Origin: Geodermatophilus poikilotrophus
GTDB lineage: Bacteria > Actinomycetota > Actinomycetes > Mycobacteriales > Geodermatophilaceae
Reading direction: 5' to 3'
DNA length: 64,000 nucleotides
Assembly: GCF_900111455.1 (NCBI RefSeq)
Contig: NZ_FOIE01000001.1
Coordinates: forward strand, 508,376 to 572,375
Below the pieces are notes generated by a model. It was given only the letters and a program-made list of their open reading frames with translations. It was not told the origin of the DNA and made no database searches. Shown here piece by piece: positions 17,055-19,632 of this stretch. The stretch's first letter is position 1. Each line of letters opens with the position of its first letter. A program made the translations under genes and the position numbers.

Positions 17055-17582
17055 TCAGCCCGACGCGGGACCCGAGGTCACGGCGGCCACCACCGCCGGG
17101 TAGACCTCCTCGGCGACCGCGCGCAGCTCGGCGTCCGTGCGGTCCTGCACCGGGTGGGGCACCAGCACGCAGGGCACCGGGAAGCCCAGCGCCACACCCT
17201 GCAGCCGCGCGGCGTCGGCGAAGGCCTCGCTGGCGAGGAAGACCCCCACCACACCCCGGCGCTCCAGGTCGGCGATGTCGTGCACACTGCACGACGTGCA
17301 CGAGCCCTAGTCGGCCAGTGCCTCGACCACCACCTCGCAGTGCTCGGTGATCTCCTGGCGCAGGTCCACCGGGGCGACGCGGGCGAACGTGGGTTTGCGG
17401 TACCGGCGCACCGTGGCGCCGTGCTCGCCGAGCAGCTCCGCGAGACGATCAAGGACCACGTCGCCGCGGGCCTTGCTGATGTCGAGCAGACCCACGGTCC
17501 GGCCGTGCAGCGAGGCCGGGCGCGGCAGCAGCGCCCGCTCCGGCGGTCGGCGCTCGCCGGTGGGATCGAGGACCGTCCTCAT
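17055..17582 (-). CDS. UGSC-family selenoprotein with in-frame TAG as selenocysteine
   Basis: The frame runs from ATG 17582 for 91 codons, meets TAG (17309-17307), then continues in the same frame for 83 codons to TGA at 17055. Around the TAG the protein reads ALAD-[TAG]-GSCTSCSVHD, the diagnostic motif of the UGSC (seleno)protein family, with TAG at the Sec/Cys position (residue 92). A bacterial-SECIS-like hairpin starts 11 nt after the TAG. Both halves keep coding character: KARGDVVLDRLAELLGEHGA before, GVVGVFLASEAFADAARLQG after. The family is redox-related by its CxxC and U/C residues, but its reaction is unknown to me. The start overlaps the upstream TGA (ATGA). The alternative is a nonsense pseudogene; the hairpin and exact codon position argue against it. 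Confidence 0.85.
17277..17295 (-). promoter_or_regulatory. Bacterial SECIS hairpin for UAG recoding
   Basis: In the mRNA, GUCGUGC and GCACGAC pair perfectly (7 bp) around the loop AGUGU, beginning 11 nt after the UAG. In E. coli fdhF the SelB-binding mini-hairpin also starts 11 nt after its UGA and needs G and U in the apical loop; both are present here. The bulged U of the E. coli element is not evident. Confidence 0.8.
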
Positions 17583-19072
17583 GTCCGTACCTCCCGCGTC
17601 ACCGGAGTGCTGCCCGTCTCGCCGCCGACCCAGCCGCCGACGACCGCACTGAACAACCCGGCGTCCCCGCCGGCGTGGGCCACCAGCAGGCCGCCGGGCC
17701 GGAACTTCGGCACCTCGTCGGCGGCGACCCCGGGCGGCAGGCCCTCGGCCATCCCGCCGGCCCCGCGCACCAGCTCACCGGCCGGGAGCCTCAGCAGCCC
17801 GTCCAGCTCGGCCAGCAGGCGGGGGCGGTCCCAGCCGGCCTCGCGAAGGACCCGGCCGTGCTCCGGCGAGACGACGAGCATCGCGTCGAAGGCCATCGGC
17901 AGCTTGGGGTGGGCGTTGACGCGCAGGCAGGCCGCGAACGACCGGGCCAGCGACTCGGGGTCCCGGCTGAGCTGGTCGACCACCGGCTGCACACCCGACC
18001 CCGCGAAGACGGTCACCGCGTTCCCGGGCACCCCGCGGTCGGCGGCCAGCGGGGCGAAGGGGCTGCCCTGCTCGCGCTCGGCGAAGCAGGAGCCGGTCTT
18101 GCCCGGGTTGCCCAGGGTCGCCCGGTCCACCTCACCCGGGCGTCCGCCCCCGACGTTGCGCACCACCAGCTGCAGCGCCCGGCCGATCGTGGCGTTCGCA
18201 CGGTTGCCCTGGCCGAGGGCGTTGACCCCGCTGTTCATCCCGATCCGGTCGGCGACCGGCCCGTTGACGACCACGACCGGACCGGCGAAGTGGGTCGTGG
18301 CCAGCACGCCGTGCAGGGCGAACTCATCCGCGCACGCCGCCTCCAGCGCCGCCAGGACGACCGGCAGGTACTCGGGCAGGCAGCCGGCCAGCACCGCGTT
18401 GACGGCGACCTTCTCGACGGTGCAGGGCACGAGGTCCGGCGGGACGACGGCGACCACCTCACCGGGGTCGCGGGTCGTGCCGCGCAGCATCCGGAGCACC
18501 CGCTCGGGGGTGGGCGGGACGACGGGGAGCCCGTCGGTCCAGCCACGGTCGAACAGCGCCTCGTGCTCGTCCTCGAGGTCGGCGAGCTCGATCCGGCGGC
18601 TGGCCAGCCCGCTGCCGCCGTACCGCGCCTCCAGCGCGTCGATCCGAGCCGGGTCGACCGACAGCGACCCACACCCCGGCCGGTGCTCCGGCAGACCCTC
18701 CCCCAGCCCGGGGACGCCGGTCAGCGCCTCCCACTGCTCGCGACTCCAGCCGACCGTCCGCGCGGTCTCCACCCCGTCCTCGACCCGCAGCAGGGTCGGC
18801 ACCGTCTCCACGTCCAGTCGGTAGGACAGCTCCAGGGCGGTGTCGTCGTGGTCGAACCAGGTCGGGTCGTCCTGGCACCACACCGCGGCACCGAGGCCGC
18901 GCAGCACCGGCTCGACGAGCACGCAGGTCGGGCACTCGCGCTTGACCACGGCGACCAACCCGTCCGGCAGCTGCCCGGTGCCGACCGAGGCCGGCTGCCC
19001 GGGCGCCGGTGTGCCCGCGACGGGCGCGGCGCGCAGAGGGGGTTCCGGGGCGTGCCGCGGCACCGCGCTCAC
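17579..19072 (-). CDS. Thioredoxin-like two-domain protein, selenoprotein operon partner
   Basis: This 497-residue protein begins with a thioredoxin-like domain (residues 25-130): [19 protein letters not shown] holds an active-site-like CPTC and [13 protein letters not shown] is the cis-proline strand. The rest (from [19 protein letters not shown] to the end) is a large domain I do not recognise, with [22 protein letters not shown] and [12 protein letters not shown] as its most ordered parts. It could shuttle electrons to or from the UGSC selenoprotein. GTG 19072 overlaps the stop of a small upstream ORF by 4 bp, and its own TGA overlaps the selenoprotein ATG, so all are coupled. Confidence 0.8.
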
Positions 19073-19221
19073 GGGCCGGTCCCGGGCGGCGGGGGGTCGT
19101 CCTGTCCCGCGTCGTCGGCCAGCTCCCGCGGGATGCCCTCGGACGGAGCCCGGTGCCGCTCCGGGTCCAGGTCCTCCGCCAGCCGCCGCTCCACCTCGGG
19201 TGTCCCGTCCGGATCGGTCAC
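19069..19221 (-). CDS. Small acidic protein, selenoprotein operon leader
   Basis: A 50-residue ORF ([18 protein letters not shown] and so on) starts at GTG 19221 and ends in a GTGA overlap with the thioredoxin-like gene. It is very rich in Asp, Glu and Pro. I do not recognise a family. The coupling favours a real gene, but the ribosome binding site is poor and the frame is also open further upstream. Confidence 0.4.
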
Positions 19222-19632
19222 ACGGTGCGGTGTTCCCCACACCGGGGCCGCGGAACCCCGGCGGCGGCGCGGCGGACGACGTCCACGGGGACCCCGCGCA
19301 GCCGACGCCCCTGCGGACCGGCCACCACGACCCGCCCCTGGTACGGGTGCCGGTCGCCGGCGGTGGTGGTGTCCGCCGGACACCTCGGCGGGCGCGGACC
19401 GGGCCACCGGCCGGACCTCGTCCGGGACGGGGTCCGCCCGGTCGCGGTGGCGCGTCCCCGGGGTGGCGGGCGGTCGCGTACCGTGGTGTCCGGTCGCTGT
19501 TGTGCCTCTGCTTCGTTCCCGAACGTCCGCAGTCGTCTCTGCCTGACGTTCCTCTCGGTCCTGCCGGTCGGTGCGGCGACCCGGGAGCGGCGACCGTCCG
19601 TCCTGACGCGACAGCACGGAAGAGGGAACGAC
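19222..19632. other. Divergent intergenic region with cspA leader
   Basis: These 411 bp separate the selenoprotein operon from cspA. The right part is probably the long 5' leader usual for cold-shock genes. A minus-strand ORF ending at 19218 also overlaps the 50-residue ORF by 4 bp, but most of it looks non-coding. I see no firm operator. Confidence 0.4.

Follow-up and report, generated by a model that had tools for sequence, protein, structure and literature searches.

What does an in-frame TAG mean when it falls on the very codon that gives a protein family its name? In the window, a stretch of 64,000 nucleotides from Geodermatophilus poikilotrophus, a predicted UGSC-family selenoprotein gene (17055..17582, minus strand) is interrupted by such a codon. 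The frame, read from 17582 to 17055, consists of an ATG-initiated segment of 91 residues in all, the TAG, a further 83 residues and a terminal TGA (17057-17055, minus strand). The TAG (17307..17309, minus strand) lies in the motif ALAD-[TAG]-GSCTSCSVHD and is the sole interruption of the frame; when it is read through, it becomes residue 92 of a 175-residue product and, judging from the codons of orthologues and homologues, a predicted selenocysteine codon. The read-through product matches the Pfam UGSC family (PF24696) over residues 3-169 with 146 bits (cut-off 25) and NCBIfam NF041046 with 142.6 bits (cut-off 125), and these scores, together with its [U/C]GSC motif, place it in the UGSC family. 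Since both profiles match across the TAG, the sequence has coding character on both sides of it. The first-pass annotation had described a frame broken only by TAG at the U of the motif, with this length and with intact coding character on either side, and had given no strand; each of these observations is confirmed, on the minus strand.

We examined which codon occupies this position in related genes, using 112 genomes of the same bacterial family, 54 of which have a UGSC relative (E up to 0.001). All of the 36 closest orthologues found in this set (71-99% identity) have TAG at the Sec codon; therefore, its presence there is not due to chance. A sense codon other than one for Cys in close relatives was to count against the first-pass proposal, and these relatives have TAG instead. 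The same motif carries TAG in 24 more distant UGSC copies, which were fetched because a TAG was listed for them, and Cys occupies the site in nine fetched UGSC loci for which no stop was listed. A scan of named genomes (genome_contigs) confirmed at least 577 UGSC relatives; among the best 80, which were kept, the Sec codon is TAG in 15 and TGA in 65. Each of the 15 TAG records bears the name Geodermatophilus or Blastococcus in its title. Most of the TGA group consists of MAGs with the title Acidimicrobiia or Actinomycetota, joined by some Chloroflexi, a Frankiaceae MAG, Pseudonocardia, Halopseudomonas and others. The suggested alignment of homologues with Sec or Cys thus holds for the TGA loci (65 of the best 80) and the nine Cys loci and fails for a few database sequences: among 22 near-full-length homologues aligned, of 120 listed, three have another residue at the site (Arg in P0003, Trp in P0004 and Ser in P0022, all from source contigs of about 1 kb), and P0042 reads out of frame there. 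The Trp may be a TGA read under another code. At the other end of the gene, the terminal stop is also TAG in six of 30 orthologues (L019, L021, L024, L027, L029 and L033; in three of the 30, the gene runs on past the sequence that was read), so that a single gene would use UAG in two senses.

A codon of this kind calls for a matching tRNA, and the first-pass annotation asked for selC with a CUA anticodon along with selA, selB and selD. All four are present in the source genome (G000; 4.83 Mb in 18 contigs). The Rfam tRNA-Sec model gave eight matches there, two of them above the cut-off of 47 bits: a single tRNA-Sec gene, which scores 65.1 bits and has a CUA anticodon, and a second match (48.2 bits) that ARAGORN identifies as tRNA-Ser with anticodon TGA. 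According to ARAGORN, matches 3 and 4 are tRNA-Ser and tRNA-Tyr, and matches 5-8 score 32-35 bits. No UCA tRNA-Sec is found among the matches above the cut-off; the genome's tRNA-Sec has CUA, whereas a tRNA-Sec with UCA alone was what the annotation took as evidence against itself. The selC(CUA) gene belongs to a single cluster, in which it separates selD from selA and selB, and SelA (412 bits), SelD (382 bits) and SelB (271 bits) all score above their NCBIfam cut-offs. The genome also has prfA, encoding RF1 (473 bits); hence, termination would compete at UAG, and the yield may be low. Because the TAG stands where relatives outside the family have UGA, and because the tRNA-Sec fits UAG, translation of this codon as selenocysteine is very likely. 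By analogy with the known bacterial pathway, SelA would convert seryl-tRNA-Sec(CUA) using selenophosphate from SelD, and SelB would carry the charged tRNA to the ribosome and bind a hairpin in the message. Only a UAG followed by such a hairpin would be recoded, and RF1 would end other genes at UAG.

A candidate for this hairpin lies just downstream of the codon. The predicted bacterial SECIS element (17277..17295, minus strand) has a 7-bp stem (GUCGUGC/GCACGAC) and the loop AGUGU (17288-17284); its stem begins at the 12th nucleotide after TAG, with a codon-to-loop distance of 18 nt. Its silent positions appear frozen. Namely, codons +4, +6, +7, +8 and +10 are each represented by one single codon in 78 loci (63 TGA and 15 TAG loci from the best 80 of at least 577, a pattern that left out L264 and L270), compared with none of 43 codons of like amino-acid conservation outside the hairpin. 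The loop Ser is AGT in all 36 TAG genes and all 63 TGA genes; at other positions, the TAG genes have 147 Ser codons, of which 2 are AGT. One TGA locus from Halopseudomonas (L264) lacks the AGU loop because Cys-Met replaces Ser-Val at this point. The stem was compared across 14 UAG elements of our own choosing from UGSC subfamilies and FdhA. In this set, 90.8% of cells pair, each of the seven pairs varies on both sides, and covariation scores 0.857 versus 0.279 in shuffled and at most 0.206 in slid partners. Two of five covariation measures are not clearly above the shuffles for these 14 elements; pairs changed on both sides number 7 versus 5.7 in shuffles (100 of 500 shuffles reach 7), and further pair types number 10 versus 9.3 (244 of 500 reach 10). 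The folding energy of the UGSC hairpin is unremarkable (z of -0.49 to -1.52), and that of the FdhA hairpin has a z of +0.77. The FdhA elements share the 18-nt lead of UGSC and have the loop GGUCU. Overall, we predict a SECIS-like hairpin whose silent sites are frozen in both the TAG and the TGA sets and whose stem covaries between UAG genes.

Given these results, we consider that the TAG of the UGSC gene is read as selenocysteine through the genome's CUA tRNA-Sec under the direction of the downstream hairpin, a prediction from DNA to which we assign a probability of about 0.95. The proposal of a natural UAG selenoprotein is therefore very probably right, supported as it is by selC(CUA) with its sel genes and by the TGA and Cys homologues. 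The TAG could instead be a nonsense mutation or a sequencing error, leaving a pseudogene or two short proteins. Mechanical ORF calls do split the gene into ORFs of 91 and 76 aa, and many homologues in the database comprise just the N-terminal half, at about 96-106 aa; yet a lesion or an error would hardly recur in 36 of 36 close orthologues, coincide with a codon that is TGA in 65 of the best 80 loci (of at least 577) or be followed by codons whose silent positions are held, and we regard this explanation as extremely improbable.

If the codon is translated, the amino acid might be another one. ARAGORN labels the CUA tRNA as tRNA-Pyl, which would make the residue pyrrolysine, but we take that label to follow from the anticodon, given that the Rfam tRNA-Sec model assigns the same gene 65.1 bits and that it lies between selD and selA-selB. 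In addition, PylS has just two matches in the source genome, of 25.5 and 23 bits against a cut-off of 178.15, and the site holds TGA or Cys in homologues, which leaves pyrrolysine a negligible chance. A further possibility is that the tRNA is an ordinary suppressor working through EF-Tu, so that UAG is read through as Ser or another standard residue; serine allo-tRNAs with a tRNA-Sec-like shape do exist, according to the relevant part of PMC7609411. General suppression would, however, damage the six of 30 orthologues that keep TAG as their terminal stop, and it fits poorly with the linkage of selA, selB and selD to the tRNA gene, with the conserved SECIS-like hairpin right after the codon, and with Cys in the nine fetched homologue loci without a stop. 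We judge it very unlikely and retain selenocysteine as the predicted reading of this codon.

A hairpin model, built with the window's UGSC hairpin among its 14 sequences, was used to search the source genome. Among 30 matches, three stand out, with 52.5 bits for the UGSC hairpin and 51.3 and 47.6 bits for the others; the next match has 24.4 bits. These three elements belong to the window's UGSC gene, to FdhA and to a thioredoxin-reductase-UGSC fusion gene. The UGSC and fusion genes helped to build the model; thus, their high scores are no independent proof. The FdhA gene (contig 10) carries TAG where FdhA is known to have Sec, in NQARI-[TAG]-HS (L352:1496). In the fusion gene (L069:5705-7117, plus strand, contig 9), a thioredoxin-reductase-like flavoprotein domain (Pyr_redox_2, 71.6 bits) is joined to a UGSC domain that has its own TAG (6863) and hairpin; two partner-like ORFs follow, 40% and 38% identical to the gene that precedes UGSC in the window. 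The first 12 of the 27 weaker matches were taken as noise. Eight of these 12 start with TAG, and two of the eight, L302 and L307, are flanked on each side by more than 70 open codons and have no recognised motif. This model would miss any UAG selenoprotein whose element is of another kind, AhpC being an example.

How widely is the CUA anticodon shared? We found tRNA-Sec (E up to 1e-9) in 108 of the 112 family genomes, with 110 genes in total, 102 CUA and 8 UCA. By genome, 100 have CUA only, seven have UCA only, one has both and four yielded none. The seven genomes with UCA alone account for every member of genera g5, g6 and g7 (nine genomes in the set) in which tRNA-Sec was found. In a midpoint-rooted tree of 27 SelA sequences, built with no outgroup, the five sequences from UCA genomes, which come from three genomes, are separated from the 22 of the CUA genomes, the pattern to be expected of one inherited change. 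FdhA is matched in at least 100 of the 112 genomes, and its Sec site is TAG in all 15 cases read (13 loci, L189-L201, plus the source genome and genome G058). None of the nine genomes of g5-g7 has FdhA among the matches listed at E up to 1e-50. A hairpin model, R2, applied to G058 and the seven UCA genomes listed no UGA element among its matches, which were the two UAG genes of G058 and three of 24-26 bits that start with TGG and were taken as noise. Two individual genomes deserve mention here. In G079 (L202), the FdhA match contains TGA, the Sec region is absent from the locus, and a second piece lies on another contig; this is probably a broken or misassembled copy. The draft genome G037 has two tRNA-Sec genes, both CUA, on contigs 25 and 168. 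Taken together, we infer that the family's tRNA-Sec anticodon would have gone from UCA to CUA following the split from the three divergent genera, and that the few selenoprotein genes would have changed from TGA to TAG with their hairpins kept.

The single genome with both anticodons is G058, which by match is Geodermatophilus sp. LHW52908. It has a CUA tRNA-Sec (L158) and TAG in both UGSC and FdhA. On contig 17, which is not the contig of the CUA gene, a second tRNA-Sec with anticodon UCA scores 81.8 bits (L070:1173-1263, minus strand), and about 300 nt from it lies an AhpD-like gene (L070:1579-2157, plus strand) with one in-frame TGA at CFY-[TGA]-MESH. This TGA is followed by the hairpin ACGCAG-AGUUU-CUGCGU, which is not unusually stable (z +0.22) and has a 16-nt lead compared with 18 nt; R2 did not list it. 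The AhpD-like protein matches the peroxidase-related family TIGR01926 with 112.5 bits (cut-off 81.8) and matches NF041238, an AhpD-related (seleno)protein family, below its cut-off. Ten homologues read at the TGA position have Cys in five cases and Trp in five; here, too, Trp may perhaps represent a TGA that gene callers read under another code. The first 12 kb of contig 17 has a G+C content of 62-72%, versus 78-79% at two compared G058 loci, and contains ORFs that by eye resemble transposases. Further along, about 3 kb shares 85% identity with a second genome of this genus; thus, the contig is probably not contamination. Among AhpD-like matches in 68 of the 112 family genomes, no other has a stop inside, and a plasmid search with the protein gave 333 records, all below 60% identity. 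The UCA tRNA-Sec and the UGA AhpD-like gene may form a mobile cassette for UGA-coded selenocysteine within a host that uses UAG. Combining both parts, a single anticodon change may have moved the family from UGA to UAG, and a mobile UCA cassette may later have entered one member or more, so that two stop codons would mean selenocysteine in one cell with two tRNAs and one SelA/SelB; we put forward this combined history tentatively, at slightly under even odds.

What the UGSC protein does can be approached through its neighbor. The partner gene directly upstream (17579..19240, minus strand) encodes a thioredoxin-like N-terminal domain (CPTC) and a conserved "GLPVVPPT" domain. Its stop overlaps the UGSC start (ATGA, 17582-17579); therefore, the two genes are probably translated together. 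The ORF as listed has 553 aa; because most listed orthologues have 463-472 aa, its true start is probably near 18976. The best matches of this protein are 97% identical, followed by 91-92% in named Geodermatophilus, which agrees with the earlier impression that the window is Geodermatophilus-like. No Pfam or NCBIfam family scores above its cut-off for the window's copy; the thioredoxin-like character of the N-terminal part is indicated by weak Pfam matches and by Foldseek matches to thioredoxins over that domain only (best E 0.0013). An upstream partner is present in 75 of the best 80 loci (of at least 577), ending at most 400 nt from the Sec codon in 74 and at 431 in one; of the five loci where none was found, three are near a contig edge, and the other two are L251 and L282. 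In L240, L272 and L274, the CxxC and GLPVVPPT parts are separate ORFs. The predicted UGSC structure (mean pLDDT 92.2) has an alpha/beta fold of five strands in which residue 92 immediately precedes a helix, so the selenol would sit at the start of that helix. Searches with this model in Foldseek and VIA-align gave no specific fold relative; the best 50 matches of each are mostly flavodoxin-, CheY- or Rossmann-like, and thioredoxin is not among them. A thioredoxin fold was thought likely for UGSC in the pertinent section of PMC2398784. The partner and the flavoprotein domain of the fusion gene suggest that electrons might flow from the thioredoxin-like module to the UGSC selenol. We would guess, from partner and motif, at a redox selenoenzyme working with the upstream thioredoxin-like protein.

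This system is a natural change of the recoded codon with little else altered, in that only codon and anticodon differ, and a single family holds genera on either side of the change. According to the corresponding part of PMC7609411, the anticodon arm is bound by none of the pathway enzymes; this accounts for the feasibility of such a swap. In practice, standard annotation or UGA-only tools would cut these genes of the family in two. The two-tRNA genome, if real, would offer a direct test of whether one SelB can serve two codons at once.

Several known systems resemble this one to different degrees. PrdB and GrdB (PF07355) are alike in their order of strand, U-x-x-C and helix, with profiles in register at the Sec column; hhalign gives a probability of only 16.5% (E 0.0015, 59 columns), a PF07355 match is listed for none of 33 UGSC members, and a distant tie is at most suggested by the profile comparison. 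Six PrdB-like PF07355 genes (L356-L361) have an in-frame TGA before PxC, preceded by VPV, APV, TPV or VPS, in genomes that also have a TGA-interrupted UGSC. The AhpC of Blastococcus saxobsidens DD2, a UAG-Sec protein added by PMC5330540 in its account of these bacteria, shares the codon swap and the family and differs in its selenoprotein family. UGA-coded UGSC selenoproteins, as covered in PMC2398784, have a homologous protein, the same neighbor gene and the same hairpin, and differ in the codon, TGA (65 of the best 80 loci, of at least 577) versus TAG here. The closest system is the UAG-Sec of Geodermatophilaceae: the relevant passage of PMC5330540 describes three genomes of the family with a CUA tRNA-Sec and cites Mukai et al. 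2016 for this tRNA and for UAG in FDHs and UGSC-motif selenoproteins, and UAG-Sec bacteria are mentioned, with the family not named there, in passages of PMC10778597 and PMC8124441. The first-pass statement that CUA tRNA-Sec and UAG use had been reported was thus right in substance, and UAG-Sec in UGSC proteins of Geodermatophilaceae is already in print. Compared with the system of Mukai et al. 2016, which has the same family, the CUA tRNA-Sec and UAG in UGSC and FdhA, the difference is this gene in this genome; worked out here, with no claim as to their absence from print, are the anticodon count, the UCA genera, the covarying hairpins, the thioredoxin-like partner and the two-tRNA genome.
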